Source: Streptomyces sp. CBMA156
GTDB taxonomy: Bacteria; Actinomycetota; Actinomycetes; Streptomycetales; Streptomycetaceae
Assembly: GCF_014596515.1 (NCBI RefSeq)
Contig: NZ_MSJQ01000291.1
Span: 1 to 64,000 of the forward strand
Direction of reading: 5' to 3'
DNA: 64,000 bases
Part shown: piece by piece, positions 27,639 through 59,089 of the stretch
Layout of the letters: the number at the start of each line of letters is the position of its first letter
Numbering within the stretch: position 1 is the stretch's first letter
Notes under the pieces: generated by a model
The model's database searches: none
What the model saw: only the letters and a program-made list of their open reading frames with translations
Told to the model about the DNA's origin: nothing
Program-made: the position numbers and the translations under genes

Positions 27639-28009
27639 CACAGTCACAACTTCACGGCCTCACCGGTCGTCTAGCGAGCCCAGCTGACCAGCACTTCAAT
27701 GGCCGCCTTGCCGTCAGGCCGGTTCCGCCCGCCCGAGCACACCGCATGGTGCGGCTGCGCAGAGGGTCACCGATTCAGAGGGCGCCGTCAATCCCCCGAC
27801 GGCGCCCTCTCCCCCTAAGCGAAGCACCGGGACTTGTGGCCTGCTAGACCGCGCAGTGCGGGGCCCGACAAAGGCCTCGGTCCGCGAGCCCGAGTACGGG
27901 GGGTGAGCGACAGCAACCAGAGCACGTCATGAGAGGCGCCGGAGTCCATGGTGCGACCTCTCGCATTTCCCCGCCATATCTGCACTCCAGTGAAGAGGTC
28001 TTGTGCGGC

Positions 28010-29776
28010 ATGTTTCAAGAGGTGCAGCTCAACGAGCGCTACCGGCTTCTTTCCAAGCTCTCGGAGCCGCTGAAGAAGGCCGAGCGCGACATCGTCGGCC
28101 GCGAGCACGAAATGACACAGCTGCTGGCCTCGATGAGTCGTCCCGAGCTGTGCAACGCGCTCTTGCTGGCCGAAGCCGGCACAGGCAAGACGGCCCTGGT
28201 CCAGGCCACGATGCTGGTCGACAAGTACCGCCTCTACCTCGAAGTGGATCCGGCGCGCATGGTCTCCGCGGCCGGCAGTGCCGAGAACATGGCCGCGATG
28301 CTCAAGGGCTTCTTCGACGAGGCCGAGGACTTCGTCAGGGACGAGATGCACGAACTGGTTCTCTTCATCGACGAGTTCCACCAGATCGTTCAGCTCTCCG
28401 GCGCCGCCGTCGAGGCGATCAAGCCGGTCCTGGCTGCCTCGGGAACCCGCGGCATCAGGATCATCGCGGCGACGACCTACGAGGAGTTCCACAAGCACAT
28501 CTCGCCGAACCAGCCGCTCGTCGAGCGACTGCAGCGCATCAACCTCGGCCCGCCGGACCAGGTGACGACCATCAAGATCCTTCAAGGCATGGCCGAACGG
28601 TACGGGGTGGCGGGCGAGTTCTACGACGACCACATCTTCCGGCAGATCTACGAGTACACCCAGCGCTATATGCCGGCCAGCGCCCAGCCGCGCAAGTCGA
28701 TTCTCGTGCTCGACTCCATGGTCGGCTGGCATCGCCTGACGCACCGACCGTTGGACCGGGACCTGCTCTCGGACGTACTCATGGAGGCCCTGAACGTCAA
28801 CGTGGCCTTCAAGGTCGACGGCGCGAAGATCAAGAAACAGCTGGACGAGAAGGTGTTCAGTCAGGACTGGGCGACCGGCGCGGTGGCACGTCGTCTGCAA
28901 CTGTCGGTGGCGGACCTCAACGACAAGGGAAAGCCGATGGCGAGCCTGCTGTTCACGGGCTCCACCGGTGTCGGCAAGACCGAACTCACCAAGCAGCTGG
29001 CGAAGCTGCTGTTCGGCGACGACCAGCGTCACCTGATCCGGTTCGACATGACGGAGTACGCCGAGGACACTTCGTTCGCGGCCTTCCGCTCCGAGCTCAC
29101 CAAGCGTGTGTGGGACCTCTCCCACGCTGTGCTGCTTTTCGACGAGGTCGAGAAGGCCTCGTCGATGGTCACGCGCGTGCTGCTGCAGGTGCTCGACGAC
29201 GGCAGGCTCAACGACGACAACAACCGTGAGGTGAGCTTCCTCAACACGTACATCGTGCTGACGACGAACGCCGGCTCGGAGATCTACAAAAGCATCTCGC
29301 AGTACGCCGCCGACGATACCGGCTCGGGCAAGCAGCTGATGGAGTACGAGAAACTCATCCGCCGCTCGATCTCCTCGACGACGGGCGACAACCGGTTCCC
29401 GCCCGAGCTGCTGGGCCGTATCGACGCGATCGTCCCTTTCCAGCCGCTGTCACTGCCGACGCAGCGGAAGATCGTGCGGAAGAAGCTGCGCCAGATGGTG
29501 CAGGAGGTGTTCGTCAAGCACAACGTGCGGGTCGACGTCGATTCGAGGGTCCTGCAGTATCTCATCGAGGACAAGGGCGACACCGACTCCGATGCCGGTG
29601 GCGCACGTGCGGCCGTGTCGAAGCTGACCGATGAGGTCATCACCGCGGTGGCGACGTTCCTCAACGAGCACCCCCCGGAGCGACGGATCCGCATCGACAT
29701 CGTCGGCGACCTGGTCAGCGATGACAAGAACCTGCTGAGTTCCGATGCCTACGTCGAGGTCAGCGCGGTGCGATGA
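28010..29776 (+). CDS. Clp/HSP100-like double AAA+ ATPase
   Basis: The ATG at 28010 gives a 588-residue protein. AAA-1 has Walker A AEAGTGKTAL (K60) and Walker B LVLFIDEFHQ (D121, E122). AAA-2 has Walker A GSTGVGKTEL near residue 323 and Walker B VLLFDEVEKA near 377. The second module has the ClpA/B-type C-terminal region (FPPELLGRIDAIVPFQPL). It lacks the Clp N-domain and the long ClpB middle domain, and no IGF/L loop for ClpP is evident, so it is more likely a protein remodeller than a protease partner. It sits between the relaxase and coupling-protein genes. A second, distinct relative lies at 56507-58414. Confidence 0.88.
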   Translation: MFQEVQLNERYRLLSKLSEPLKKAERDIVGREHEMTQLLASMSRPELCNALLLAEAGTGKTALVQATMLVDKYRLYLEVDPARMVSAAGSAENMAAMLKGFFDEAEDFVRDEMHELVLFIDEFHQIVQLSGAAVEAIKPVLAASGTRGIRIIAATTYEEFHKHISPNQPLVERLQRINLGPPDQVTTIKILQGMAERYGVAGEFYDDHIFRQIYEYTQRYMPASAQPRKSILVLDSMVGWHRLTHRPLDRDLLSDVLMEALNVNVAFKVDGAKIKKQLDEKVFSQDWATGAVARRLQLSVADLNDKGKPMASLLFTGSTGVGKTELTKQLAKLLFGDDQRHLIRFDMTEYAEDTSFAAFRSELTKRVWDLSHAVLLFDEVEKASSMVTRVLLQVLDDGRLNDDNNREVSFLNTYIVLTTNAGSEIYKSISQYAADDTGSGKQLMEYEKLIRRSISSTTGDNRFPPELLGRIDAIVPFQPLSLPTQRKIVRKKLRQMVQEVFVKHNVRVDVDSRVLQYLIEDKGDTDSDAGGARAAVSKLTDEVITAVATFLNEHPPERRIRIDIVGDLVSDDKNLLSSDAYVEVSAVR

Positions 29777-29915: not shown

Positions 29916-31970
29916 ATGGGCATTCTGGGAACGGCATCGGTCCGCCAGAGGAAGGAACGGAAGAAGAAGACCGACGAGCTTCTGGCCTCCGTGGTGAGAG
30001 AGACGGCGATCCCGGCCGCAGTCGCGCTGCTGCGGTCGAACACTCCGTTCGTCCTTCCCAGCGGGACGGCCTGGGTGATGCTCGTGCTTGCAGCCGACGA
30101 CATCGGCGGCTTGAGCAAGCGGCACGGCCGGGACGAGGCCAAGGGCTCGATCATCGAGCTCATCAGCTCCGACCAGATCCGCACCGTGGCCACGGCGGAG
30201 ATGATCGAAGAGGAGGTCTTCGGCATCATCCCCACCGGCGAGACGCTTGCGCGCGTGGAGGAGTACTCACTGCTCACCGGCGCCACCTACACCTGGGCCG
30301 TCGTGTGGCAGAAGCCAGGCGGCGATCTCCTCGTCGATCTGGTGAACGATGCGACCTTCGCTCAGGCGCGTTCTGTCCTCGCAGGCACCACGAGTCTCGA
30401 AGAGGCTCTGGGCGAGAAGGCGTGGGCGGAGCACAGCGGCATGGTCGCCGAAGTCGGGGCCATTGCCACTGTCCCCGAGGTCCTCGGGGAGGACAAGGGG
30501 GATCCGATCTTCGACGCGATCCCCGAGGACGACGTCGCTGACGAGGGCCCGGACGACGAACCGCTCTTCAGTGACGTCGTCGACGACGAGGAGGCGGACA
30601 CACCCATGTTCGACGAGGACGACGCGGGCACCGCTCCAGTCGAATCGGGGCCGGACCACGACAGCGACAAGGTGGCCGGCTACGAGGGTTTCGACGAGAC
30701 CGACGCCGACTACGGTGTCGAGGGTGACCACCAAGAGGCCGGCGACACTGTGCTGCCGGCCAATCAAACCCAGGTGCGCGACGTCATCGCCCGCCGGTTC
30801 CTCTCCGAGGAGCTGAACCTGGATGTCCGGCTCGATGAGTTCAACGCGACCTTCGCCATCGGCGCACCGGTCGTGCAGATCGCTGTGCCCGAGGGCGCGA
30901 CGGAGTGGCTCGGGGACCAGGTCGCCCAGCTCAACAGGCAAGCCAACGCCGATCTGACGCAGCTCCGTTCCGCGCACGAGGATGAGCTGCGCGCGCTCTA
31001 CGTCAACCTCATGTCGGCACACACCGAGCAGGTCATCCGCGATGTGGCCACCGACCGCGCGGGCTCCCGGTACAAGCTGCTGAAGGACGCCGCCGAGTCC
31101 GAGCACCAGCAGCGGCAGACGGAGAAGGACGAGAAGATCCGGGCCCGCCGGGCAGAGATCGCCAAGGACTACGAGTCGCAGGCCACCAAGGTGGCCCAGC
31201 AGGCGGCACTCTCGGCGGAACTGCAGTACAAGGAGCGCAACCGCTCGAAGATGGAGCGCGAGCAGATCGACTCCGTTGCCGTGATCGAACGGGACATCGA
31301 GGATACCCACGCGCACAACCAGCAGGAGATCCTACGGGTCCGGCGTTCGGACGCGACGCTGAAGATGCAGACCGGGCAGACCCGGATCTTCGAGGTTCTG
31401 GCCGAGCGGCAGTCGGAGTACCTGACAGCCGAGGAGAAGCGCCTGAACCGGTGGAAGTCCGAGATCCAGCGGATCGTCGACGACAACCGCAAGGCCGACA
31501 TCGCCCAGTCCGAGACGCTGGCCGAGCACCTACGAACCAAGGACGAGATCGGCGTCCTACGCAGGGAGCAGCAGGGCCTCCTGGAGTCGGTGCGCGCTGA
31601 GCACGCCGACCGGATCCGCCAGATGGGGGAAGAGCTCGAACGCAACCGCAAGGACGCCATCACGCAGATGACGGCTCGGGACGCCGAGTGGCAGCACAAC
31701 CTCGACCTGGAAAAGGAGAAGACCAGCTCTCAGGTAGCGCGGGCCACCGACCTGCTCCAGCGGCTGTCGACGGTCGAGGATTCCGTGGCCAGGCGGTATG
31801 AGGTGCGCCTGGCGGAGATGCAGGCCGACAAGGAATCCTACGCCAACGAGCTGGCGCGGGCCTCCGAGATGCAGAGCCGCTCGAACAAGATCCTCGTCGT
31901 CATGATCGTCACGCTCTCGCTCCTGATGGCCGTGGCCGGCTTCATCGTCGGCGTGGTCTTGGCCCGTTGA
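29916..31970 (+). CDS. Long coiled-coil protein with C-terminal membrane anchor
   Basis: The ATG at 29916 is chosen over a TTG at 29907. The 684-residue protein has an N-terminal folded domain of about 150 residues (TAWVMLVLAADDIGGLSKRH), then a very acidic linker (about 190-270). A second domain follows, then about 300 residues of charged coiled coil (ERQSEYLTAEEKRLNRWKSE). One membrane span closes the protein (IVTLSLLMAVAGFIVGVVLA). It is thus tail-anchored with its bulk in the cytoplasm. It lies next to the coupling-protein gene and could be a membrane scaffold. No family recognised. Confidence 0.78.
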   Translation: MGILGTASVRQRKERKKKTDELLASVVRETAIPAAVALLRSNTPFVLPSGTAWVMLVLAADDIGGLSKRHGRDEAKGSIIELISSDQIRTVATAEMIEEEVFGIIPTGETLARVEEYSLLTGATYTWAVVWQKPGGDLLVDLVNDATFAQARSVLAGTTSLEEALGEKAWAEHSGMVAEVGAIATVPEVLGEDKGDPIFDAIPEDDVADEGPDDEPLFSDVVDDEEADTPMFDEDDAGTAPVESGPDHDSDKVAGYEGFDETDADYGVEGDHQEAGDTVLPANQTQVRDVIARRFLSEELNLDVRLDEFNATFAIGAPVVQIAVPEGATEWLGDQVAQLNRQANADLTQLRSAHEDELRALYVNLMSAHTEQVIRDVATDRAGSRYKLLKDAAESEHQQRQTEKDEKIRARRAEIAKDYESQATKVAQQAALSAELQYKERNRSKMEREQIDSVAVIERDIEDTHAHNQQEILRVRRSDATLKMQTGQTRIFEVLAERQSEYLTAEEKRLNRWKSEIQRIVDDNRKADIAQSETLAEHLRTKDEIGVLRREQQGLLESVRAEHADRIRQMGEELERNRKDAITQMTARDAEWQHNLDLEKEKTSSQVARATDLLQRLSTVEDSVARRYEVRLAEMQADKESYANELARASEMQSRSNKILVVMIVTLSLLMAVAGFIVGVVLAR

Positions 31971-32096: not shown

Positions 32097-35000
32097 ATGG
32101 CCACGAACAGGCGGAAGGCGTCACGGCCTGAGGCGAGCAGCTGGGACAAGATCTCAGCGCGGTCGCCCGGCGAGACGTTGACGAACCGAGACGTCTACGA
32201 CAACCAGCAGCTCGATCGCAGCGAGTTCTCGACCCTGAGGTCGACCAGACCGGGCATCGTCGTCGCGGTGATTGCCGGCACGCTGGTGACGGTCGTCGTC
32301 TGGGTCCTCTACTCGCTCATCGCCACGGCGGTGCTCTCGGCGGGCACGTCCGCGGGTTCGGGCAGGCCTGGCAGCAGTACCGGCATGCCGAGCGTGTACT
32401 ACGTCCAGGACACCACGACAGGTGCGGGCGGCTCGGTCGTGAAGTGCTACCGGCCTCTGGCCGAGAACGGCAACCCGGATGTGAAGGCCAGGTGTTATCC
32501 CAGCGCCGAGGCTGTCCCGGTCCCCCGCTGGTACACCGCGGCGAAGGACGGCAGGCCCGGCGCCGAGAGGTCGGCTGAGTCCAAGAAGAACTCGACGACC
32601 GTCGGCGAACAGCTGGCCGACGTCTCGGGGTTCAAACTCTTCATCACGCTCGGCTCGGGTCTGATGGTCGGCCTCATCATCGGCACGTGGTTCTCGCGGA
32701 AGGTCGCCGCGGCGAACCTGATGAACGACACGAGCGACATCAACCAGTACCACAACGACCAGCACATCGCCCTGCCGGAAGAGATCCAGCAGAACTACGA
32801 CTGGTTCCCCGACGCCGGTGCTCACTCGAACGTGCAGGTCAGCTCGATGCTCAGCCACATGATGCTCAGGAAGAAAGGCCTGGGCACCGTCGAGGTCGCC
32901 CAACGCGCCACGAAGGACGTCATCGGCGAGAAGGGGCACCCTGTCTACTACGCGGGCGAGGTCATGGACGACGACGAGGGCAATCCGCTGACGCAGACCC
33001 TGCCGATCATCGACGAGGACTTCGGCGACGAACTGTTCGAGGCATCAGGGCTCCCCGAGGACAAGGGGCTGCGTCAGAAGTACGACACCAGGCTGATTCC
33101 GTACAACCCTGACGGCCGGAACCGGGACAAGCTCGGCTTCGGGTCGGACAAGTACCAGACCGTCGCTGACCTGATCAAGGAGGACTGGGCGTTCCCGGCG
33201 TACGAGGTCCAACGCCCGGCCGGGGCGTACGTGGTCGACACCGCGCCGGTGAACACCATGGTGCTGGCCATCACCCGGGCCGGTAAGGGCCAGACATACA
33301 TCGAGCCGGTCATCGACATGTGGTCACGTGAGAAGAAACCCTCGAACATGGTCATCAACGACCCCAAGGGCGAGCTGCTGGTGAAGAACTACGTCGCCCT
33401 GGTCACTCGCGGGTTCGAGCCGGTGCAGTTCAATCTGATCAACTCCATGAAGACCGACATCTACAACATCCTGGGGCTGGCGGCCGACGCGGCACGTGAG
33501 GGCAACTTCACCAAGTGCGCACTGTACGTGGAGAACATCGCCGGGATCTTCTTTCCGCTCGACGGCGGCGAGGACCCGGTCTGGCCCAATGCCGCCAACA
33601 ACGCCTTCAAGCGCGCGGCCTACGGACTCATCGACTTCTACCTGGAGGAGGAGCGGGAGCTGCGCAGCGCCGCGGCCGTGGTGAACATGGATCTGGCCCT
33701 GGTGGAGCAGAAGCTCGACGACCTCTGGGGCAAGGTCACCCTCTACAACTGCTACCAGCTCTTCGTACAGATGAGCTCGAAGAAGATCAAGAACCCTGAG
33801 GCCGAGCTGGAGAAGCGGGTCAAGGCCGGCGAGTTCGAGAACAACGAGGACGCCTTGGCCGAGGAGCAGGAGAAGGCGGCTGCCCAGGCCTTCATGTGGG
33901 AGGGCAAGGCTGATCAGGACATGCTCAGCCTGTACTTCAACGCGAGCGAGGAGCTGCCCCGCAACAACATGCGCACGCTGGTGGGCAACGCCCACAACGC
34001 GCTGCGCTCGATGGCCGGGGCGGAGAAGATGCTGGCCTCGGTGTACGGCATCGCGATCACCGCCATGTCGTTCTTCACCGACCCCACGATCTCGACGCTG
34101 ACCTCGGGCAAGCCCTCGCAGAACACCGACCTGGCCGGCCTGAGCTTCCCGCGTCGCCTCGGCGTGCGTTTCGCGCCGAACTACGTCAAGCGCGACCACC
34201 TCGTCGGTCAGCAGGCCGTGTGGTCGGCCTACGCGGACCCGATGTTCACCGAGAACCTGGGCGAGGACTTCACACACGAGGAGATCGTCGGCCGCGAGGG
34301 ATGGGCGCGGTACAACTTCAAGGGCAAGTTCCCCGACGACGAGGCCTGGCTCAAACTGGAGCTGGTCAACCCGCAGACGAAGATGCTGGTGCGGACCTTC
34401 TACTTCAGCTTCACGAAGAACTACCGGCTCTCACTCAACGGCCGGCACTACGTGGTCGAGCCGGTGACGGGCAGGAAGATCGTGAAGAACGGTGTGATGC
34501 GTGAGCTCAAGCCGGTACGCGAGGGCGGCACCCGGGACGGGCGGATCCTCTCCTTCCAGCCCGGGGACACGCTCTACCCGGACACACGGCTGGACTTCTC
34601 CGGCGGCGGCAATCCGGAGAAGGTCTCGTACCAGGCACGGGCGATCACTCAGACACTGGCGCGCTACTCGGAGTCCCCGAAGGCGCTGTTCCTGGTGACT
34701 CCGCCGCACCTGATGAAGTACGCAAAGCTGATCCTGATCCTGGTCAAGCAGCTGTTCGACGTGAGCGCCGACCAGGCGTACATGACGAAGTCGAACCAGA
34801 AGCCGCTCTACCGCACGCGGTTCATGCTCGACGAGCTCGGAAACCTGCAGTCGGAGGGCAAGGGCATCGACGGCTTCGAGACGATGCTCAGCATCGGTCT
34901 CGGCCAGGAGCAGCAGTTCACGCTCATCCTGCAGACCCTGCAACAGCTGCGCGATGTCTACGGCGAGTCGGTCGACAAGATCGTGCAGGGCAACACCTCG

Positions 35001-36143
35001 AACATCGTGTTCCTGAAGTCCACGGACGACTCGATGATCGAGACGCTGGAGAAGATGAGCGGCAAGACGCACCGGTCGTACAGGGACAGCAAACAGATCA
35101 GCCAGGATCTCGACAAGCTCATCGGCGGCAAGACCGAGGGCCGGGTCTCCTACACGATGACCACCAAGGAGGAGCCGCTGATCAGCTACAACGACATGGC
35201 ATTCCTCGCACCGCGAAACTCGATCGTCTTCCGCGCCGGCGACGCGCCGATCTGGAACCGCAACCAGACGATCCTGCCGATGTCGTTCCGGCTGCTGGGG
35301 AACACGATCAAACACCCTGGACACACGTACTCACTGCAGACGATCCCGACCTTGTCCAGTGCCGTGGACTTCGACGTACGGATGAATCAGCCGGACTTCG
35401 TGAAGATGCTGGAGAAGCGTATGCGGCAGGCGGTCAGGGCCGCGGACGCGAAGGCGCAGTACAAGGAGATCTACGGCTACCAGGAGGTCGACATCGAACG
35501 CCTGGACCCGGATGTCTACGCCGACGAGGTCATGGAGGTCATCACCACGATGACCACGGTCGACCAGGGTCAGGACCCCAGCGCCCCGGTGGTCGTCGAC
35601 CCCGATGAGTACACCGGGATGAGCATGTTCGACGAGGACCAGTTCATCGAGAACGTCGAGGTCGGGGTTGCGGTCGCCGAGAGTCGGGCGGTCAGCGTCG
35701 AGCGGCAGCGACTGCTCTACGCCGAGGGGACGATCAGCAAGGAGATGCTGGTCAACCCCGACGGGTCGGCGAAAGTCAAGAGCCTGGACATCGAGATCGG
35801 TGAGGCCTACAAGTCGGCGCAGACCGAGCTGGAACAGGATCGCGAGCACTTCTCGGTCGGCGGCGACGGCGAGCTGCGCAGCACCGATGGATCCCAGACG
35901 TATATCAGCCGGATCCGCTCGGACGCGTACGCCCGTGCGGCCCGCCGGATCAACGGTCACGTGAACGACGGGGACTCGCGGGTGTTCGCCGAGGAAGACG
36001 TCACCGAGCAGGATCTGAAGTCGCTGGTGACGGTGATGGTCCACTCGGCCTTCTACCAGTACCTGGCCTCGCTGCCGAGCTGGGAGGTGCTGGCCGACGG
36101 CCGGTTCGACCGGGCCATGGCCATCGAGATGAACTCGAAGTAG
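32097..36143 (+). CDS. VirD4/TraG-like conjugative coupling ATPase, very large
   Basis: The ATG at 32097 follows AAGGG; an earlier in-frame ATG lacks a site. The 1348-residue protein has two N-terminal membrane spans (about residues 57-82 and 181-202), Walker A in TRAGKGQTYIEP (about residue 395) and Walker B in RFMLDELGNLQSEG (about 911). It also has the QTLQQLRDVYG and NTSNIVFLKS segments of VirD4-type coupling proteins. These ATPases bring the relaxase-DNA complex to the secretion channel. The gap between Walker A and B is more than twice the usual length, so about 300 extra residues are inserted. The C-terminal 250 residues are an unrecognised extension. Confidence 0.88.
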   Translation: MATNRRKASRPEASSWDKISARSPGETLTNRDVYDNQQLDRSEFSTLRSTRPGIVVAVIAGTLVTVVVWVLYSLIATAVLSAGTSAGSGRPGSSTGMPSVYYVQDTTTGAGGSVVKCYRPLAENGNPDVKARCYPSAEAVPVPRWYTAAKDGRPGAERSAESKKNSTTVGEQLADVSGFKLFITLGSGLMVGLIIGTWFSRKVAAANLMNDTSDINQYHNDQHIALPEEIQQNYDWFPDAGAHSNVQVSSMLSHMMLRKKGLGTVEVAQRATKDVIGEKGHPVYYAGEVMDDDEGNPLTQTLPIIDEDFGDELFEASGLPEDKGLRQKYDTRLIPYNPDGRNRDKLGFGSDKYQTVADLIKEDWAFPAYEVQRPAGAYVVDTAPVNTMVLAITRAGKGQTYIEPVIDMWSREKKPSNMVINDPKGELLVKNYVALVTRGFEPVQFNLINSMKTDIYNILGLAADAAREGNFTKCALYVENIAGIFFPLDGGEDPVWPNAANNAFKRAAYGLIDFYLEEERELRSAAAVVNMDLALVEQKLDDLWGKVTLYNCYQLFVQMSSKKIKNPEAELEKRVKAGEFENNEDALAEEQEKAAAQAFMWEGKADQDMLSLYFNASEELPRNNMRTLVGNAHNALRSMAGAEKMLASVYGIAITAMSFFTDPTISTLTSGKPSQNTDLAGLSFPRRLGVRFAPNYVKRDHLVGQQAVWSAYADPMFTENLGEDFTHEEIVGREGWARYNFKGKFPDDEAWLKLELVNPQTKMLVRTFYFSFTKNYRLSLNGRHYVVEPVTGRKIVKNGVMRELKPVREGGTRDGRILSFQPGDTLYPDTRLDFSGGGNPEKVSYQARAITQTLARYSESPKALFLVTPPHLMKYAKLILILVKQLFDVSADQAYMTKSNQKPLYRTRFMLDELGNLQSEGKGIDGFETMLSIGLGQEQQFTLILQTLQQLRDVYGESVDKIVQGNTSNIVFLKSTDDSMIETLEKMSGKTHRSYRDSKQISQDLDKLIGGKTEGRVSYTMTTKEEPLISYNDMAFLAPRNSIVFRAGDAPIWNRNQTILPMSFRLLGNTIKHPGHTYSLQTIPTLSSAVDFDVRMNQPDFVKMLEKRMRQAVRAADAKAQYKEIYGYQEVDIERLDPDVYADEVMEVITTMTTVDQGQDPSAPVVVDPDEYTGMSMFDEDQFIENVEVGVAVAESRAVSVERQRLLYAEGTISKEMLVNPDGSAKVKSLDIEIGEAYKSAQTELEQDREHFSVGGDGELRSTDGSQTYISRIRSDAYARAARRINGHVNDGDSRVFAEEDVTEQDLKSLVTVMVHSAFYQYLASLPSWEVLADGRFDRAMAIEMNSK

Positions 36144-36174
36144 CCGACGGCCACTTGGGGGCCTGGCGAGGATG

Positions 36175-36230
36175 AAGGCCAGTGCCGGGGTTGCCTCTCG
36201 ACCAAGAGGGACAACCCCAGTACTGGCCTT
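36175..36230 (+). terminator. Long multi-part hairpin between coupling-protein and polymerase genes
   Basis: AAGGCCAGT (36175-36183) pairs with ACTGGCCTT (36222-36230). Inside lie GGGGTTG/CAACCCC and CCTCT/AGAGG pairings. The composite stem is followed directly by TCGAATGACC and the polymerase leader, so it probably insulates the polymerase gene from upstream transcription. Confidence 0.75.
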
Positions 36231-36308
36231 TCGAATGACCTATCGCTTCCTTTGGATGGACAGGTTAGTATCTATGGATACTTATGCAACTCCGAGTGTC
36301 CATAGGAG
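36231..36308 (+). promoter_or_regulatory. AT-rich polymerase-gene leader with motif and palindromes
   Basis: TCGAATGACC starts at 36231. Downstream is CTTCCTTTGG, then the perfect hyphenated palindrome AGTATC-TATG-GATACT (36267-36282), nested between ATGGACA (36256-36262) and TGTCCAT (36297-36303). The palindrome could be an operator. AGGAG (36304-36308) is the ribosome site, 11 bases before the GTG. The stretch is among the most AT-rich of the window. Confidence 0.5.
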
Positions 36309-36319
36309 CTTGATTAGTA

Positions 36320-39300
36320 GTGAAGAAGGCACACGGACTGCGCAGATACTTCTACGAGTACGTCTACTACAAGGCAGTCGAGCAAGCCCGGGAACAGACC
36401 GGACAGGTCATTCCGATCTCCCAGGCCAAAGCGATCCGCGCCCGGGTCGACGAGCTCCTCGGCCGGCAGGGCACCGCGCTGGCCGACCCGCAGCTGGGCG
36501 TCACCGACTGCCTCACCGCCATCGACCAGGCACTCGGCGAGCGGGTGGCCGGCTACGAGCCGCAGTTCGGTGACCACTCCCCGCGGAACGAGCGCTACCA
36601 GCAGTCGCAGCGGGAGTTCACCCGCGCCACCGGCGTCGGTACCCAGGTGGACCCGAAGTCGGCCCGGCTGCCGATCAGCCCCTACGACCCCCGCTGGTCC
36701 GAACGCGCGACGGTGAAGCGCGCCGGGACTGCGCTGGTACACCTGCCGGACGAGACGATCGGACGCGTGGCCGACGGTGAGGTGGAGACCCTGGCCGACC
36801 CTCGGCGCGGAAACATGGCGCTCTGGCGCATCGACGACGAGGGCAGGCCGTTCGAGGCAGGCCGCGCGATGACGAGCGACGACGCCGCCGGACTCACCAC
36901 ACTGATGGACAAGATGAGCCAGCGGGAATACGACCAGGTCCGCGAGTGGGTCATCGACGGCGGCCGGACCCCGCAGACCAACCACGTCGACCGCAACCGC
37001 TTCATGTCCCGGCGCGCCGTGGCGCGCTCGGCGGCACTGCTCGAAGAGCTGAAAGCTCAGGGCGTGTCCTACGAGGTGATGCGCGACCGCGAGCCGGGCC
37101 AGATCAAGGCGAGGATCGCCGGGACCGGCATGGAGATCCGCCTCATCGACACGCGCCAGGAGGAGTACGCCGGGGCCCGGATCTACGACAACGGCACCGT
37201 ACTGCGCTACTCGACGAACTACCGGGTCCCCGGCAGCATGGCGGTCTACTCCCCCTCGCCGACGGAAGCTGTCCAGCTGCTGCGCTTCGCCCAGGGCCAT
37301 CGCGTCGAGCGCACGGATCTGCCGGGGCACGCCGCCGGTGGGACCGGCACAACGCACCAGGAACGCGGCCGCGCCCGCACGGTGGTGAATGTACCCGACA
37401 GCTACCACGTCGACCGCGAGTCGATGTTCGTGGTCGGCGACTACACGGTCCCCGGCGAGTCCGGCCCCCGGCCCGGGGCGAAGGTGATGCTGCGCCGGGA
37501 CGCGAAGAACCGCTCGCTGCCGGCCTTCTTCATCGACGCCGAGCCAGCCGAGGCCTATGCGAAGGCCGCCGTCGAGAGTGCTCGGGCGAACCTGCAGGCA
37601 GCCCTTGGCGTCGAGCACCTCATTGCTCGTGCCGAGGACGAGCTGGAGAGAACCGGCGGACAACTGGATGCGATCGAGCCGCCGGAGTACTCGGCTGACG
37701 CCGAGGTCGCTGCGATTCAGCGCTCATACTGGGACGTGCTCACCGGCGCGAACAGCGACCTGCTGCGCCCGGGCGCGACCGAAGAGATGTACCAGGAGCG
37801 CCTGGAGGAGATCGGCGAGCTACAGCCTGGGGAGGTGCCCGAGATGGGCAACCTCGCCTACGGCGGCACCGCCGTCGAGAAGGTCCGACAGCACGCCGAA
37901 GACATCCCCTTCGAACTCATCGGGACCTGGGAGGCCCAGCCCCACCACATCAACGGCGAGTGGGTCGACCAGCGCTTCAACCCGGACCGGGTGGCACGGT
38001 ACATGACCAGCCCCACTGGGCAGTGGTCGAACCTCGACAACCTCGCCTCGGCGCTTCGTCGCTGCGGGGTCTCCCCCGACGAGGTGATGGGCTCTACCTT
38101 CCAGACGACCCGGTTCAAGGACCGGCTCGTCCGCTTCAACGCCGAGCGCTCCGTACCGATCGCCGATCACGAGTCTGCGTTCATACGGCGCGTCGGGGTC
38201 ACCGTGCGTGACAGCATCGAGCGCAACGCGGCGACGGTCTCCGAGATCCTGATCGACGAGCAGGGCGTCATCCGCTGGAGCGGCGAGAAGCTGCGCCGTG
38301 ACGGCAAGGGGAGCCCGATCTCGGGCGAGATCGGTCAGGTCTTCGATGTCGGCGAGTACGGCGAAGTCACCACCGCCTTCGCCAGCGGGAGCAACGCCCT
38401 GGTCGTGCCGGGCTACGAGGCCACGATCACGGCCCAGGCTCCGGGCGAGGCTCCGACATCGGTCGAGGAACGCACCCGCCTGCGCGGCTACGAGCAGCTC
38501 ATGCACGAGCGCATCCAGTACCAGATCGCCGGCGACCTCATCTCCGGACGCAGCGTGACCGGCGAGCCCTCCTCCCTCAACGCGGTCTACTCACAGCTGT
38601 ACGGCACCAAGCACCCGGTCGACTTCATCGAGCGCGCCACCACGTACCGGCTCGACGAGTCCACCGGCGAGCTCACGGGGCACCTGGACGAGTGGACGGC
38701 CGCGACCCTGCAGACCGAGGCGCGTCGTGTGCGCTACTCCAACGAGATCAAGGCAGGCTCGACGATCTACGCCGAGTACCGGGCCCAGCGCGACCGAACC
38801 GACCCGGCTGACGACAACCGCTTCGACGCCTGGCGGCTCACCGGCGGGCGGAACATGACGGTGCTCACCGGCAAGGACCGGAACAACGTCGTCGCGCCCA
38901 GCGGCTACTTCGACCCGGTGATGACCGGTGGCGCGACCAACCAGGGCATCGTGCGGTACCTGACCACTCAAGCCCGGGTCGACGCCGACGGCCGGATCGC
39001 ACCAGGGGACGACAGCGTGGGCGGACAGCGTGCACCGCTCATGGCTCTCCCCGAGCTCGAGACGCTGCGGTACGACCCGTTCGACCGCCAGCAGATGACG
39101 GCCTCGACGATCATGCAGTCGTCTGAGGTCACCGCGCCGGCGAAGACGGCGCTGATGACCTTCGGTGGTTGGACGGCCGACGATCCGATCGTGGTGTCGA
39201 AGGAGTTCGCCGAGCGCCACCGCATCCGCGGGGCCGGCGGCCGGGAACGCGATCTCGTCGTAGGCGACAAGATCTCGGACCTGCACGGCAACAAGGGCGT

Positions 39301-41866
39301 GATCTCACTGATCGTCGACCGGGACATGCTGCTGCAGGACGCGCAGGAGCAGGATGTCGTCGAGGAGGTCAACTGGTTCCGGGCCAACCCGGGCCTGGAC
39401 GTGGTGATGAGCCCGTTCAGCCTGATCTCCCGGCGCAACGCGGGCTCGGCCCGCGAACTGATGAACGGGAACGTCTCCGACCTGCGCTCGCCCGACGGAG
39501 AACTGCGGCCGAATGCCCTGGGCGAAATGCGCTTCGTGGTCACCCACATGGCCGTCGACGAGAAGACGAAGATCTACGACGACCAGCAGGTGCGTGCCGG
39601 AAAGGGCCGTAAGGCCTCCTCCCAGCTGGCCTGGGCCCTCCAGTCTCAGGACTGCCCGGCGATCATGCACGAGTTCTACGGCCACAACAGCGGGGCCGAA
39701 TCGAACCTGCGCGAGTATCTGCTGGTGACCGGCATGGACATGGCGGCTGACGGCACACTGCGGGTGATCGGCCAGACCGAAAGCCTCGACGAGCGCCCCG
39801 AGCGCCGGTTCATCCCGATGCCCGGGCTGCTGCGCACCCAGCCCCGCAAGGTGGGCCAGCTCCCGGGACTCAACGCCACGGCGATGCGCAAATCCTTCGG
39901 CGCCCTCATCGGCGACCGCGGCGGCGACATGGAGATTCCGTTCCCGCTCACCTATCCGACCGGTGAGCGAACCGAGACGGTGAGCGCGAACTCGTGGAAG
40001 CTGCCGGTGATGTCCTCGCATCTGCGCAGCGGCCAGGAGTTCGAGGACGGGTCCTCCGTCACGCACGACTACACCCGCGGCTACCAGGACGTCTTCGTCG
40101 AGGCCTGCCGCTACCGCTACATGGCCGAGCAGCTCGCCGGCCAGGGCCTGTCCGCGGAGAAGCGCGTCGAGGTGCGCCACGGTATGAGTGAGTCGGTCTC
40201 GCGCGCTCAGCGCGCCTTCGAGGCGATCACGACCGACGTGCGGAACCGGGTACTGACAGGCAAGAACAACATCTTCAAGACCGGGCTGATGGCCTCGCGG
40301 CTCACCGACTCGGCGACGATGGTGTGGACCTCAGACCCGCGACTGGACGTCGACCAAGTCGCGCTCAGCTCGGTCAAGGCCGAGCAACTGGGGCTGGCCG
40401 AGGGCGACCACGCGCTCGTGTGGCGTGACCCGGTGCTTCGTGACGCCGGCGTGCGCTACATGCGGGTCGCGATCGATGACCGGCTCACCGGCGCCGCGAT
40501 CAACCCGGTGATGGACGCCTGCTTCGACGGCGACTTCGACGGCGACGCCGTCGCGGTGGTGAAGCTGCACAGCGAGGCCGCCAAGGCTGAGGCCCTGGCG
40601 AAGCTCTCGGTGCCTGCCAACCTGCTGGACACCGGCGTGGTCAAGGGCGATGGCTCGCACCCGCTGGCCATGCAGGTTTCTCTGGACACCCAGGTCGCAC
40701 TCTCCAAGGACGTTGCACTGGCTGAGGAGTTTCAGAGTTCGCGGAGCGAGGCGAACCGGCTCCGGCTGCAGGCGCTCACGGGCGCAGAGCAGCCGGAGGA
40801 CATCACGCTCGCCCAGCAGGTCGTGACGGAGGAGCTGAGCGTGCTGTACCGCCAGGCGCAGCGCGGCGAGTTCGGTGCGGCGCTGACGTTCTCGGATCCC
40901 GAGGCGCACCTGCAGAGTGTGCGCGAGGTCTGTGTCGAGACCGGTGCCAAGGGGAGTGAGAAGAAGCTCACCGACTACGCCCGGAACCTTGGCGATGCGC
41001 AGGGCACACCTGGCATCACGCAGGCCGACCAGGAAGCCTCGATGTTCGCCACGGCGATCAAGGCCCACGGCACCGGTCTGGGCGGCTCATTCAGCCAGCG
41101 CGCCGTTCGCGCGCTGCGCGGCGAGGACCTCAAGGCCGTCCTGGAGGTTACCTACCCGGTGACCCAGTCGATTCTGCAAGCCAAGCACGACGCTGCCGAG
41201 GCCCGGCACAAGTACGCGATGCTCCAGGGCCCCGGCCGCGATCTCTGGAGGGGCCGCAGCATCGCGCACGTCGGCCCGGGCCAGTGGCGCACGGCGCTCC
41301 TCGACGGTGAGCCCGTCCAGGCCACGGCTGAGGAGTGGGAGAAACAGTTCATTGAGTTCTACGAGTCCAAGGAGGGCTTCGGAGTCACGGTCAACCCGGA
41401 CTATGTGGCCCGCGTGGCCGGTGCGCTGGAGGACCCGAAGACCGGCCTCATCCGCAACTTGGAGGAAGACGCGTCGCTGCGGGGCACCGTGATGGACCGG
41501 ATGGCCTATGGCGGCGCCTTCGCCGATCTGGTCGAGGCCGCCAGGAACCGCGAGAGCGTCTACGAAGGCGAGAAGAACGAGCAGTTCGCATCCTCGGGGA
41601 CACGGAAGGCTCGGACACAGTTGTCCCGGCAGCTCGACCGGCTTGGCGCCGCCGAGACACACAGCCTGGACAACGCCGTGATCGCTGTCGACGACTCGGT
41701 GGTCAAGCGCGACGTGATCTCTCAGAACGCGGATGCCTCCCGCACTCGCGGCGCGCATCGCCGCTCTGCGCATGCCGTGCGCGTGGGCGCGGCGCGTCGG
41801 GTGTACACGCCGAGCATCGAGATCGACCAGCCGCAGGGCGACGGCGACTACGGGATGGGGTATTGA
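36320..41866 (+). CDS. Single-chain two-barrel DNA-dependent RNA polymerase (fused beta/beta'-like)
   Basis: The 1848-residue protein carries both double-psi beta-barrel signatures of multisubunit-type RNA polymerases. The beta-type barrel has GDKISDLHGNKGVIS with both conserved lysines (K984, K992). It is preceded by FDRQQMTASTIMQSS and FGGWTADDPIVVSKEFA and followed by MSPFSLISRRNAGSA, all in beta-subunit order. The beta'-type barrel follows GKNNIFKTGLMASRLTDSA (about 1314) and has DACFDGDFDGDAVAVV with the metal-binding aspartates D1405, D1407 and D1409. The catalytic centre thus looks intact. The roughly 900 residues before it are unfamiliar. The chain is far shorter than beta plus beta', and no alpha, omega or sigma gene is nearby. 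Related single-chain enzymes are known from phages and prophages (YonO, crAss-like). The start is a GTG with AGGAG 11 bases upstream. A gene for a 574-residue protein starts one base after its stop. Confidence 0.9.
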   Translation: MKKAHGLRRYFYEYVYYKAVEQAREQTGQVIPISQAKAIRARVDELLGRQGTALADPQLGVTDCLTAIDQALGERVAGYEPQFGDHSPRNERYQQSQREFTRATGVGTQVDPKSARLPISPYDPRWSERATVKRAGTALVHLPDETIGRVADGEVETLADPRRGNMALWRIDDEGRPFEAGRAMTSDDAAGLTTLMDKMSQREYDQVREWVIDGGRTPQTNHVDRNRFMSRRAVARSAALLEELKAQGVSYEVMRDREPGQIKARIAGTGMEIRLIDTRQEEYAGARIYDNGTVLRYSTNYRVPGSMAVYSPSPTEAVQLLRFAQGHRVERTDLPGHAAGGTGTTHQERGRARTVVNVPDSYHVDRESMFVVGDYTVPGESGPRPGAKVMLRRDAKNRSLPAFFIDAEPAEAYAKAAVESARANLQAALGVEHLIARAEDELERTGGQLDAIEPPEYSADAEVAAIQRSYWDVLTGANSDLLRPGATEEMYQERLEEIGELQPGEVPEMGNLAYGGTAVEKVRQHAEDIPFELIGTWEAQPHHINGEWVDQRFNPDRVARYMTSPTGQWSNLDNLASALRRCGVSPDEVMGSTFQTTRFKDRLVRFNAERSVPIADHESAFIRRVGVTVRDSIERNAATVSEILIDEQGVIRWSGEKLRRDGKGSPISGEIGQVFDVGEYGEVTTAFASGSNALVVPGYEATITAQAPGEAPTSVEERTRLRGYEQLMHERIQYQIAGDLISGRSVTGEPSSLNAVYSQLYGTKHPVDFIERATTYRLDESTGELTGHLDEWTAATLQTEARRVRYSNEIKAGSTIYAEYRAQRDRTDPADDNRFDAWRLTGGRNMTVLTGKDRNNVVAPSGYFDPVMTGGATNQGIVRYLTTQARVDADGRIAPGDDSVGGQRAPLMALPELETLRYDPFDRQQMTASTIMQSSEVTAPAKTALMTFGGWTADDPIVVSKEFAERHRIRGAGGRERDLVVGDKISDLHGNKGVISLIVDRDMLLQDAQEQDVVEEVNWFRANPGLDVVMSPFSLISRRNAGSARELMNGNVSDLRSPDGELRPNALGEMRFVVTHMAVDEKTKIYDDQQVRAGKGRKASSQLAWALQSQDCPAIMHEFYGHNSGAESNLREYLLVTGMDMAADGTLRVIGQTESLDERPERRFIPMPGLLRTQPRKVGQLPGLNATAMRKSFGALIGDRGGDMEIPFPLTYPTGERTETVSANSWKLPVMSSHLRSGQEFEDGSSVTHDYTRGYQDVFVEACRYRYMAEQLAGQGLSAEKRVEVRHGMSESVSRAQRAFEAITTDVRNRVLTGKNNIFKTGLMASRLTDSATMVWTSDPRLDVDQVALSSVKAEQLGLAEGDHALVWRDPVLRDAGVRYMRVAIDDRLTGAAINPVMDACFDGDFDGDAVAVVKLHSEAAKAEALAKLSVPANLLDTGVVKGDGSHPLAMQVSLDTQVALSKDVALAEEFQSSRSEANRLRLQALTGAEQPEDITLAQQVVTEELSVLYRQAQRGEFGAALTFSDPEAHLQSVREVCVETGAKGSEKKLTDYARNLGDAQGTPGITQADQEASMFATAIKAHGTGLGGSFSQRAVRALRGEDLKAVLEVTYPVTQSILQAKHDAAEARHKYAMLQGPGRDLWRGRSIAHVGPGQWRTALLDGEPVQATAEEWEKQFIEFYESKEGFGVTVNPDYVARVAGALEDPKTGLIRNLEEDASLRGTVMDRMAYGGAFADLVEAARNRESVYEGEKNEQFASSGTRKARTQLSRQLDRLGAAETHSLDNAVIAVDDSVVKRDVISQNADASRTRGAHRRSAHAVRVGAARRVYTPSIEIDQPQGDGDYGMGY

Positions 41867-41867
41867 G

Positions 41868-43592
41868 ATGGCACAGTACAAGGAGCTGGGAACGGGCCCC
41901 CCAGGTCGTCGGCGCGCGGCCAAGGTGCTTCCCGTGGGCGACGATCGGCATCAGGCCGATGAGCCCGGAGGCAGCGCGTATGCCAAGTCGGACTCGCGCT
42001 CGGACGAGCCGATCGACGCTGAAGTGATCGGCGAGCCGGGACCGGAGGACGCCGACGGTGCGCGCGTCTGGCGCGATCGTCTCCGGGGCCGTACCCGAGG
42101 GTTCTTCGGTAGGAAGACCCGGGAGCGGATGGTCGACCGTGAGCGCTTGCACCGGATCGACGTCGACCGGGCCGAGGACGAGAGCGAGATCCTGAATCAG
42201 CGCGAGCAGCTGCTCAAGCTCCGGGCGGAAACACGGCTGGCCGGTGAGAAGTACATGGCCTCGCTACGGGACTCGAAGCTGTTGGTGCCTGGCTTCAACG
42301 ACGAGGAGCGGACGCGGGATCTCGGCGTCATGCATCACGTCTACATGCAGATGATGATGCAGTCGTGTCTCAAGCCGCTCTCGCGCGGCGTGAATGCCAA
42401 CTCGATCATCCAGGCGGTCGGCATGGTGATGACGATGCGGATGCTCGCCCCGGACTTCAGGGAGGAGATGGACAGCTACCTCCAGCCTCTCAAGGACAAG
42501 ATCCAGGAGCGCATCGACACCAGGACCCGTGGCCTGGTCGCCTCTGCCGAGATCGGCATCGCACACCGGCAGAGGATCTTCCATGACGTGCCGAGCGACG
42601 CCCGGCGCGAGCGCCTCGTCGGCAGCACGGATCCGCGTGACCACCTGACGAAGAAGTGGCGCAAGCGCTTCGACGCCATGCAGCACCGTGAGCGCGGCAA
42701 CCGGGAGATGTTCACTCCGGACTCGGCAGCCATGACCGAGGTCGCACTCATGGAGAACGCCTTCTGGAAGATGCGTGAGCCGAGCGCGGACGCCGGCCTG
42801 ATCCGCGACAGCTACCGGGCAATGCGCAAGCGGCTGCACGAGCAGACGAGTGAGGACGGCCTGGAGCGCCAGGAGGTCGTCCAGCGCGCGCGACGGATCA
42901 TCGGTGAGCGGATGGAGTACGAGCCCGAGCTGCGCACGATGTTCAACGGCGTGGCCCACGGCCGGATCGTCAAGGCACCGACGCACGAGGAGCGGATCGC
43001 GGGCTCGGACCGTGTCCGTACGGTGTGGAGCGGGGAGTTCGACGACCAGCTGGGCCGGCGTCTGCCCGAGGACGCGATGTTCACGCTACGCCGACCCATG
43101 GACGCGGACGCCCACCAGATCCAGCTCGCCGAGACGATGAGGACCTCGCTGCTCGACGCGATGGGCCGCGGCGACCAAGAGGGCTACGGGGGCACCATGC
43201 TCGGCTACCTGGTCGGCTTCGCGGCACAGAAACAGGGGCTGGACACCAGCGGGCTGCCCGACATACTCCAGCACCGCCTGGACCAGTCCGAGGTGATGAT
43301 CGCGAGCATGGACATCGACGGCCTGCCGCCCGAGGACCGGCAGCGGGTCTACTCCAACGCGTACGTCGATGCGATGGAGGCAGTGAACGAGAAGTACCCG
43401 GATCTTGAGGCCGAGCTGCAGCGGAGCCTCGGAGAGAACTGGCAGCAGACGCTGCAGGCCGCGGTCGACGACCCGGGTGTCTTCTTCGAGGAGCAGCGGC
43501 GCACGCCGCAGTCGCGCCCTACTGGTCCGTCGGCCGAGCAGCAAGCCAGCCCGCAGGATGAGGCCGGTTCCGAGGACTACCAGCCCGCCTGA
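41868..43592 (+). CDS. Unknown protein encoded directly after the RNA polymerase
   Basis: The ATG at 41868 follows the polymerase stop by one base, and its ribosome site GGGATGGGG is inside the polymerase gene, so expression is coupled. The 574-residue protein has a disordered basic N-terminus, a helical charged region (ERLHRIDVDRAEDESEILNQ), a Met-rich segment (HHVYMQMMMQSC, then VGMVMTMRML) and a Pro/Gln/Glu-rich tail. It has no membrane span and no known catalytic motif. Tight linkage makes it the best candidate for a polymerase partner, such as a promoter-recognition or assembly factor. That role is inference. Confidence 0.8.
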   Translation: MAQYKELGTGPPGRRRAAKVLPVGDDRHQADEPGGSAYAKSDSRSDEPIDAEVIGEPGPEDADGARVWRDRLRGRTRGFFGRKTRERMVDRERLHRIDVDRAEDESEILNQREQLLKLRAETRLAGEKYMASLRDSKLLVPGFNDEERTRDLGVMHHVYMQMMMQSCLKPLSRGVNANSIIQAVGMVMTMRMLAPDFREEMDSYLQPLKDKIQERIDTRTRGLVASAEIGIAHRQRIFHDVPSDARRERLVGSTDPRDHLTKKWRKRFDAMQHRERGNREMFTPDSAAMTEVALMENAFWKMREPSADAGLIRDSYRAMRKRLHEQTSEDGLERQEVVQRARRIIGERMEYEPELRTMFNGVAHGRIVKAPTHEERIAGSDRVRTVWSGEFDDQLGRRLPEDAMFTLRRPMDADAHQIQLAETMRTSLLDAMGRGDQEGYGGTMLGYLVGFAAQKQGLDTSGLPDILQHRLDQSEVMIASMDIDGLPPEDRQRVYSNAYVDAMEAVNEKYPDLEAELQRSLGENWQQTLQAAVDDPGVFFEEQRRTPQSRPTGPSAEQQASPQDEAGSEDYQPA

Positions 43593-43634: not shown

Positions 43635-44000
43635 ATGCGCCAGGAACAGAGTGAGGAACAGCAGGTCAGGTTCGGATCTCGTTTCGCGCGGATGTTCGGC
43701 TACGTCACGCCGGAGGACCGGAGCCGATGGGAGCAGCAGCGGGCGCAGAACAAGCCGCACGCCAACGCGATCAAGCATGGCGCGAAGTCGTCACTGAGCT
43801 CGATGGTGGAGTTCGGGGAGCGCAACATCGGCGCGAAGCTCGACGCGGCCCACCGCGTGGCGGCGCAGCAGCGGTTCGAGGAGTCCCACAACAAGGTCGT
43901 GAACCAGCGCCACGATCCGTACACGCGGAACATCATCGAGTCGATCGACTATGAGCCCAAGGACGGCCGAGAGGAGATCGAGCCAGATCTGGAGCTCTAG
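43635..44000 (+). CDS. Small basic/acidic hypothetical protein, third gene of the polymerase operon
   Basis: A GGAGGAGG site lies close before the ATG. The 121-residue protein is hydrophilic, with RFGSRFARMFGYVTPEDRSR near the start and an acidic end (EIEPDLEL). It has no cysteine, no membrane span and no recognised fold. It lies 42 bases after the previous gene and before an independently regulated HU-like gene. It may be an accessory factor of the same operon. Confidence 0.7.
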   Translation: MRQEQSEEQQVRFGSRFARMFGYVTPEDRSRWEQQRAQNKPHANAIKHGAKSSLSSMVEFGERNIGAKLDAAHRVAAQQRFEESHNKVVNQRHDPYTRNIIESIDYEPKDGREEIEPDLEL

Positions 44001-44133: not shown

Positions 44134-44514
44134 ATGGAGACGACGAATCCGCGTGTCAGCAAGCGCGAGTTCATCTCGCGGGTCGCGACTCGTAGCGAGC
44201 TGCCGATCCGGGTGGTGAACAAGGTGTACGAGTCGCTGCTCGGTGAACTCACGGGGGCGGTCAGCTGCGGGGAGGCGGTCATGCTCACGAGCTTCGGCCG
44301 CTTCTACCGACAGGACCACAAGGGCCACAAGGTGCGCTTCGGCAAGAGCAACGTCGACGACTACGTGGTTCTGAAGTTCTCCGCATCGAGCAGCTTCAAC
44401 CGCCGGCTGGGGGGCAACGAGGACGACATCTCACCGGATACCCACGGGGCGATCGAGGATGCCGACGAGTTCGAGAACATCACTGAGGATCGTGAGCTAC
44501 GGGCCGCACCGTAG
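44134..44514 (+). CDS. HU/IHF-family nucleoid-associated protein
   Basis: The 126-residue protein follows the HU layout: two N-terminal helices (KREFISRVATRSELPIRVVN and KVYESLLGELTGAVSCGEAV), then LTSFGRFYRQDHKGHKVRFG, the strand and DNA-contacting arm. The tail is acidic and extends about 30 residues beyond normal HU. Such proteins bend DNA and help relaxosome, replication or promoter architecture. It has its own promoter-like region and ends at a strong terminator, so it can be expressed independently of the polymerase operon. Confidence 0.85.
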   Translation: METTNPRVSKREFISRVATRSELPIRVVNKVYESLLGELTGAVSCGEAVMLTSFGRFYRQDHKGHKVRFGKSNVDDYVVLKFSASSSFNRRLGGNEDDISPDTHGAIEDADEFENITEDRELRAAP

Positions 44515-55517: not shown

Positions 55518-55778
55518 GTCGTTGCCTTTCTTCGGTGGTTCGAGAGGTCGATTGAGAGAGGACGAATCGCTTCACGCGGCAATTTCAACAAGAGGTAGAC
55601 AGCCAGTCGAGTACTCGAAGACGGACGGGTGCATCGCGATAGGGCTGGATCCCGGGGGCAGGTACGAACATGGGCGGGGCTCTCCTCAGCCGGCGAGCCC
55701 CGCCCGCCCGCCCCTCAACCCACCCGTCAGGGGCCGTCAGGCCTCTGAATCCGGGGGTACGCGGCAAAGCCACGCCCC

Positions 55779-55813
55779 GAACGACCGCGCGTCACCCAGG
55801 CGCGCGGTCGTTC
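55779..55813. terminator. 13-bp hairpin in the 55518-55950 gap
   Basis: GAACGACCGCGCG (55779-55791) and CGCGCGGTCGTTC (55801-55813) pair perfectly around nine bases. The gap contains no gene; this hairpin and the next probably end the transcript entering from higher coordinates. Confidence 0.65.
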
Positions 55814-55911
55814 ATCAGCAGCTCATCTCACTTCGATGGCGAATCACCGCGCCGGCCGGGACCCTCGACGGCGGCATCGCCGGCATCGAGATCCAAGGAA
55901 CTGACAAGGAA

Positions 55912-55935
55912 GGCGCACCCGGTAAAGGGTGCGCC
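55912..55935 (-). terminator. 9-bp hairpin directly after 55951-56136
   Basis: GGCGCACCC (55912-55920) and GGGTGCGCC (55927-55935) enclose GGTAAA, 15 bases beyond the stop codon of the small reverse gene. Confidence 0.65.
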
Positions 55936-55950
55936 CGATGATCCGGAGGA

Positions 55951-56136
55951 TCAGTCGGCTACGCGTTCAAGGTGCGACCAATGAACGACCCACAGTTCCT
56001 TGATGCCGTCAGAGTCCGGCTCGATCTGCTCGACCCACGCACCGCAGTCGGTGGCAGTGACGATGCCGTCGTCCGTGACTCCGCGACGACCTACGACCTT
56101 GAGCACCTCTGCGGTACGGGTGTCCCTCACCGTCAT
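55951..56136 (-). CDS. Small hypothetical protein, 61 residues
   Basis: The ATG at 56136 opens MTVRDTRTAEVLKVVGRRGV, and the protein ends ELWVVHWSHLERVAD. It is compact, acidic and strand-rich, without cysteine pairs. A terminator follows. It is probably a small conserved plasmid protein of unknown role. Confidence 0.6.
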   Translation of the reverse strand: MTVRDTRTAEVLKVVGRRGVTDDGIVTATDCGAWVEQIEPDSDGIKELWVVHWSHLERVAD

Positions 56137-56164
56137 GCGCTATGGCACTCGTTCCGCTTCGTGA

Positions 56165-56395
56165 TCACGCCTCCTCGTACGCGTCGGTGCTGACAGGGGT
56201 GTATCCCTCGCGCACGATGCGCGCGTACTCCGCATACGTCTTGCCGTCACATGACCAGCCGTTGACCACGGTGTGACCGGACACCCGCACCTGCGCTGGA
56301 GACTCAGCCAGGGAGTATCCCCCTCCCGGGTTCTGCCAGTACTCCACTTGCTGCCCTTTCGGGGACGTCGTGTTGAAAGTCCTTGTCCAGGCCAT
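56165..56395 (-). CDS. Small hypothetical protein, 76 residues
   Basis: The ATG at 56395 (MAWTRTFNTTSPKGQQVEYW) is preferred because the longer frame has a Pro/Arg-rich start without a ribosome site. The middle SPAQVRVSGHTVVNGWSCDG is strand-like and the C-terminus is acidic. It lies 28 bases before the next small gene. No family recognised. Confidence 0.6.
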   Translation of the reverse strand: MAWTRTFNTTSPKGQQVEYWQNPGGGYSLAESPAQVRVSGHTVVNGWSCDGKTYAEYARIVREGYTPVSTDAYEEA

Positions 56396-56506
56396 AACCG
56401 ACAGAGACCTGCCTTTCTGAGCAGTGGAGGTGTGGGGATGAGGACGCCGAGGGCTCCCGCCCTTGAGCATCCGGACCGGGAGCACTCGTGTAATCAGGAC
56501 AGCCGT

Positions 56507-58414: not shown

Positions 58415-58564
58415 CGGGTCCTCCTTCGGTGCGGGTCGCTCGGCGTGGTGGCGCGCTCGGTGGAGGCGCCACGGTGTCCCGAGCAGGGATATGGATGAGT
58501 GAGAGGGGAGGCAGGGGTCGTCAGAAGCAGTGCTGCCGTTGACAGATTTCGAGGAGTGGCGTGG

Positions 58565-58730: not shown

Positions 58731-58763
58731 GCCGGCCAGAGTAGCGTTCGATTTCAGCACGGG

Positions 58764-59024: not shown

Positions 59025-59089
59025 AGTCTTCAGTCTTCTTCCGGGTTTGCGGTCAGCTTGACTACTCCCTGAGTGACGAACCACTCGAC

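Follow-up and report, generated by a model that had tools for sequence, protein, structure and literature searches.

A candidate flap-less single-chain RNA polymerase co-inherited with a conjugation system in Actinomycetota and Bacillota

Single-chain RNA polymerases (RNAPs) with two barrels are known, and examples from mobile elements are named in passing in the parts of the literature that touch on them (PMC7824862, PMC10770324). YonO, encoded by the mobile element SPbeta, joins beta-type and beta'-type active-site parts in one chain and has been shown to be active (PMC5467207), but it comprises only ~840 aa, serves phage late genes and is not associated with a VirD4-type coupling protein (T4CP). 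The crAss-like phi14:2 and P23-45 virion RNAPs are large single-chain two-barrel enzymes that enter, or have been suggested to enter, a new cell together with DNA (PMC10770324), but these are phage proteins, whereas for the protein described here we infer delivery. The NCgl1702 family is described as mobile-element two-barrel RNAPs lacking the SBHM (flap) insert in the beta barrel, a description that fits the present protein; the passage in question gives no link to conjugation. Conjugative elements do encode nucleic-acid enzymes, such as TraC1/SogL and the polyvalent proteins, and transfer alongside DNA has been demonstrated for some of them (PMC5512222), but TraC1 and SogL are Toprim/AEP primases of an unrelated fold, and the polyvalent-protein survey placed RNAP modules (N4-type) in phages only (PMC5512222). 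In the open-licence literature, searches for plasmid or conjugative RNAPs led to studies of fungal linear plasmids and of phages only.

Here, we analysed a 64,000-nucleotide stretch of Streptomyces sp. CBMA156 (the window; Table 1), in which a first-pass annotation had noticed one 1848-residue chain carrying the GDK..GNK lysines of a beta subunit followed by the DFDGD of a beta' subunit. The ORF is present as a single copy in the 9.17-Mb draft genome, and its GTG start aligns with ATG in most relatives. Pfam, a family profile searched against PDB sequences, and hhalign all upheld the proposed architecture, with the beta-type segment, including GDKISDLHGNKGVIS (residues 982-996, with K984 and K992), lying N-terminal of the beta'-type segment and its DFDGD at 1405-1409. 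Pfam RNA_pol_Rpb2_6 matched residues 976-1054 over its gathering cut-off (E=6.8e-7) and Rpb1_2 matched residues 1358-1427 slightly below its own (E=2.8e-5), while the Staphylococcus epidermidis homologue exceeded both (2.2e-10 and 5.1e-11, respectively).

Table 1. Positions in the window of the RNAP-like gene, its segments and the neighbouring conserved genes
Feature	Position	Strand	Residues	Description
Phage-lysozyme2/CHAP wall hydrolase of transfer cluster	17298..19505	+		Domain match
MobL relaxase	24159..26447	+		PF18555, 2.3e-110
ClpA-like double AAA+ ATPase	28007..29776	+		Domain match; conserved in cluster
Coiled-coil tail-anchored protein	29916..31970	+		ORF opens 29907; conserved in cluster
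VirD4-type coupling protein (T4CP)	32097..36143	+		CD1115-like; ORF opens 31992, conserved start 32097
RNAP gene promoter region	36144..36319	+		CTWTCGATAG-type box and host-like -10
RNAP-like gene	36320..41866	+		1848 aa, GTG start, intact ORF; dN/dS 0.17-0.39
Family-specific N-terminal part	36320..38809	+	1-830	hhalign: no similarity to RpoB/RpoC
Beta barrel, first half	39134..39217	+	939-966	GGWTADDPIVVSK, aligned to RpoB 798-825
Beta barrel, catalytic half	39239..39460	+	974-1047	GDKISDLHGNKG with K984 and K992, then SPFSLISRRNAG
Beta' core	40001..40648	+	1228-1443	Aligned to RpoC 242-498
Helical hairpin at beta' clamp-helix place	40073..40255	+	1252-1312	pLDDT ~90
DFDGD metal-binding loop	40532..40546	+	1405-1409	Invariant in 17 sequences
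Candidate bridge helix/trigger-loop region	40943..41191	+	1542-1624	GAKGS...TQSxLQAKHD, by eye only
Acidic C-terminal tail	41840..41863	+	1841-1848	DGDYGMGY; conserved [GED][LM][GED], after poorly conserved linker
Conserved hypothetical gene	41868..43592	+		Directly 3' of RNAP gene
Conserved hypothetical gene	43635..44000	+		Tail EPDLEL
HU-family DNA-binding protein	44134..44514	+

Searched against PDB sequences, the family profile placed Rpb1/beta' at the top (best E 2.3e-15, over ~215 columns of beta'). In hhalign, the beta' part (residues 1195-1480) matched RpoC 242-498 at 98.1% probability (E 6.7e-14) and the beta part (830-1160) matched RpoB 1055-1115 at 96.4% (E 1.1e-9), against at most 1.5% for each of 20 shuffled RpoC sequences; scores were almost unchanged with single E. 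coli sequences. The flanking beta and beta' segments that had been suggested from the sequence also proved real, as the profile and hhalign alignments pair GGWTADDPIVVSK with RpoB NGYNFEDSILVSE and SPFSLISRRNAG with NPLGVPSRMNIG on the beta side, and GKNNIFKTGLMASRL with GKQGRFRQNLLGKRV and WRDPVLRDAG with NRAPTLHRLG on the beta' side. The first half of the beta barrel was recovered as a second hhalign match (prob 17%) that adjoins the catalytic half. Further pairs drawn by eye (PVMTGGATNQGIVRYL with PIETPEGPNIGLINSL, DPFDRQQM with DDANRALM, and GAKGS with SGARGS) are individually not significant.

Likeness to the cellular subunits (RpoB/RpoC, Rpb2/Rpb1) thus extends over RpoB 1055-1115 and RpoC 242-498 and includes GDK..HGNK, DFDGD, R-x-P-x-L and the position of a clamp-helix hairpin. 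In contrast to the cellular enzyme, both cores lie in one chain, the N-terminal 830 residues are specific to the family, no N-terminal beta part or beta' zinc-finger part is detectable in the protein, and the flap insert is missing. Neither the alignment nor hhalign gave RpoB 826-1054, the beta flap (SBHM insert), any counterpart: these ~229 residues are reduced to ~7, so that GGWTADDPIVVSKEF stands almost directly before the GDK segment. In cellular RNAP, the beta flap anchors sigma region 4. The first-pass annotation, which had named YonO and crAss-like enzymes as known fused RNAPs, stood in part: the protein is a single-chain homologue of two-barrel type, but its detectable relatives are cellular beta and beta' and not YonO or the phi14:2 virion RNAP, neither of which was matched by hhalign (prob <=0.4% for YonO). 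Cellular subunits likewise miss both proteins in the same test, so this null does not exclude deep homology; at the level of sequence, the detectable affinity is with cellular multisubunit RNAP.

Structure prediction added less, both AlphaFold models being weak because the alignment was limited to close relatives. Residues 591-1790, modelled with 20 sequences, reached a pLDDT of 49.8 and a pTM of 0.30, with no usable fold match and the barrels not resolved, and residues 1196-1455 (pLDDT 56.8) resolved a helical hairpin, a few strands and nothing more. The hairpin falls where the alignment places the clamp helices. Foldseek searched with the low-confidence beta' fragment ranked RNAP beta' chains first (E 7e-6, TM 0.25), a ranking consistent with RNAP beta' but no proof of barrels.

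In an alignment of 17 sequences, G982, D983, K984, D987, H989, G990, N991 and K992 of the beta-type segment are invariant, as are S1037, R1038, N1040, G1042, R1369, P1371 and all of D1405, F1406, D1407, G1408 and D1409. The candidate bridge helix/trigger-loop region likewise holds invariant positions (G1542, K1544, G1545, T1615, Q1616, K1622 and H1623), although its hhalign score is not significant. The catalytic residues are unchanged across Streptomyces, Staphylococcus and Lactococcus, that is, across two phyla and down to ~25% overall identity, and the gene has a dN/dS of 0.17-0.39. Judged from sequence, it is almost certain that the protein is homologous to RNAPs and that its active site is intact, and because the catalytic residues are invariant and selection is purifying, it is very likely an active polymerase.

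Relatives 64-94% identical to the protein occur at 19 genome loci in Streptomyces, Arthrobacter, Pseudarthrobacter, Promicromonospora, Granulicoccus and Actinomadura; 18 are full length and the other (L019) matched over most of its length. Homologues on Gordonia pGKT2 and Rhodococcus pGS01 share 38% identity, and those on Staphylococcus and Lactococcus plasmids share 25-27% over the core, the Staphylococcus and dairy Lactococcus copies being annotated merely as 'hypothetical protein'. The annotated start of the Gordonia gene (L022, 20001-25829) lies ~450 residues late, as the open frame and the homology continue upstream. The gene is accessory: a single one of 70 congeneric genomes carries it, and among 396 genomes sampled from the phylum the only convincing match was its own genome, the remainder being short (E >1e-4) and resembling cellular rpoB/rpoC. 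Its elements reside on plasmids; a chromosomal copy is found in Arthrobacter sp. NtRootA1. No close relatives were found in phages, and a search of 2.9 million viral contigs returned a single contig with a relative (L033/L034), which itself carries a T4CP. That contig (34% GC) is filed as viral and looks like a conjugative element; by eye, its T4CP gene (L034, 1893-9865) is split by ORFs resembling intron or homing-endonuclease insertions.

Domain searches substantiated the relaxase and coupling protein that had been noticed in the element, identifying a MobL relaxase and a VirD4-type T4CP. No VirB4-type ATPase was recognised in the cluster (15935-44514), where a T4CP occurs alongside a relaxase and a wall hydrolase; besides the T4CP, the conserved ATPase there is the ClpA-like AAA+ protein. 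PADLOC assigned neither the RNAP nor the T4CP to a defence family. No alpha gene was found within the window. An rpoA paralogue is present on a plasmid of Streptomyces sp. NBC_01454 (L032 10402-11427, NZ_CP109461 96401-97426), near the element; as a partner for the RNAP it was dropped, as the window has no counterpart.

The tie to conjugation proved stronger than the first-pass annotation had claimed. T4CP and RNAP were searched independently (T4CP threshold E <=1e-30) in 72,556 plasmid records, and all 12 records with this T4CP type were among the 13 with the RNAP, these 12-13 records spanning five genera and two phyla and including some near-duplicates. The 13 best ClpA matches fell in the same 13 RNAP records. 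Because the genome loci were chosen by the RNAP itself, evidence of independent co-occurrence comes from the plasmid searches alone. The single exception, Lactococcus pJM4A (NZ_CP122373.1), keeps RNAP and ClpA, has no T4CP by tblastn, and is a decaying or mobilised copy. On other Lactococcus plasmids the T4CP lies ~33-40 kb from the RNAP gene and on the opposite strand, and therefore adjacency alone does not explain the association. The four genes follow one another as ClpA, coiled coil, T4CP and RNAP at 19/19 genome loci, and the three actinobacterial plasmids, from Streptomyces, Gordonia and Rhodococcus, preserve this arrangement. Staphylococcus retains ClpA and T4CP upstream of the RNAP gene, and the viral-filed contig L034 retains the coiled coil and the T4CP, the latter adjoining the RNAP gene. 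The MobL relaxase accompanies the RNAP in the window, NBC_01454, Gordonia and Rhodococcus. Given this co-inheritance with the T4CP, it is highly probable that the RNAP is a functional part of the transfer system.

We propose that shortened beta and beta' cores, joined in that order after the ~830-residue N-terminal part, would form a single-chain DNA-dependent RNAP of cellular type that is a core part of the MobL/T4CP conjugation system and acts on the DNA of its own element at about the time of transfer. Lacking the flap to which sigma region 4 is anchored, such an enzyme would be expected to initiate RNA without the usual sigma arrangement. It would most likely cross the T4CP with, or just after, the relaxase-bound strand, aided by the ClpA-like unfoldase, and make the first RNAs in the recipient, namely early transcripts and possibly primers, a step that we infer. 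Precedents for co-delivery exist in the P23-45 and N4 virion RNAPs and in the conjugal primases TraC1/SogL (PMC10770324, PMC5512222). The C termini of the RNAPs end in [GED][LM][GED] plus 0-3 residues in 11 of 11 cases, compared to 7 of 159 control ORFs, a motif picked after viewing the data and a count that includes related sequences; the tail is possibly a translocation signal. Acidic or GP-[EDQS]-[LM] tails are also seen on several other element proteins (e.g., 43983-43997, L022, L034), and the Streptomyces relaxase has no [GED][LM][GED]-type tail. The whole chain, from a dedicated conjugation RNAP through flap-less initiation to delivery into the recipient, ranks as the likeliest use of the protein, with a rough probability of 0.45. 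More tentatively, certain conjugation systems of Actinomycetota and Bacillota may form a class that depends on its own single-chain, flap-less RNAP of cellular type, moved with the DNA via the T4CP to begin expressing genes in the recipient before the host RNAP does.

The same enzyme might instead stay in the donor as a dedicated RNAP that transcribes the transfer or maintenance genes of the element, much as YonO transcribes SPbeta late genes (PMC5467207). Upstream of the RNAP, ClpA and coiled-coil genes in L001, L007, L009 and L016 lies a palindromic box, CTATCGATAG (CTWTCGA), at about -35, and in relatives it precedes a -10 (TAGNNT/TATGAT; e.g., TAGACT, TAGGAT) by 8-16 nt; the HU gene has a similar upstream box. 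Across 13 loci, every match to the combined pattern lay a short way upstream of one of these genes, on its coding strand, whereas the window's own copies are degenerate. GACTGAT, considered as a shared promoter motif, was abandoned in favour of the CTWTCGA box. This common box and TAGNNT layout could be the promoter of a donor-side RNAP, but the shared -10 resembles the host sigma-70 type, the RNAP gene itself has such a -10, and no second promoter class was found. Since the -10 is host-like, including that of the RNAP gene, host RNAP with an element-encoded activator fits equally, and the layout may thus belong either to the host enzyme, acting with that activator, or to the RNAP-like enzyme. 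We rank transcription confined to the donor second and regard it as rather unlikely.

An improbable third use is as a primase that lays RNA primers on the transferred single strand for complementary-strand synthesis by the host polymerase. Some conjugal primases do move together with the DNA (PMC5512222), and coupling through the T4CP would put the enzyme at the strand, yet a 200-kDa enzyme of multisubunit-RNAP type is large for priming, and that task may already be covered by a candidate AEP-type ORF (62744-63793) and by the P4-type primase encoded on the Gordonia plasmid. That ORF, with AEP-primase-like motifs seen by eye, belongs to a second backbone module on the minus strand (52716-63793) with a UvrD helicase, a second ClpA-like AAA+ protein, a VWA protein and a MoxR-like AAA+ protein, and the gene set recurs on Gordonia pGKT2 (L049).

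It is very unlikely that the protein is a non-catalytic, RNAP-derived binder of DNA or of the transfer machine whose active site is a historical remnant; AlphaFold did not resolve the barrels and the extra N-terminal part is large, but DFDGD, GDK and HGNK would hardly be invariant, under the purifying selection reported above, in 17 sequences from two phyla down to ~25% overall identity. Chance motifs or an assembly artefact, conceivable in a window whose GC-rich DNA yields many spurious ORFs, are refuted by homologues at 19 genome loci and on 13 plasmids and by profile E-values of 2e-15 and 7e-14.

Rather than a donor-bound enzyme, a primase or a remnant, we therefore favour a dedicated RNAP of conjugation that would act in the recipient. 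In the open-licence literature we found no description of a cellular-type, flap-less RNAP linked, across two phyla, to a single conjugation system, which is weak evidence that it is new. Conjugative plasmids are generally assumed to depend entirely on the RNA polymerase of their host. A transfer system not found without an RNAP of its own would alter the view of how genes are expressed in a new host, and such an enzyme could explain transfer between hosts with differing sigma factors. Being related to the cellular enzyme but trimmed and made of one chain, it may also lend itself to the study of which parts of an RNA polymerase are essential.
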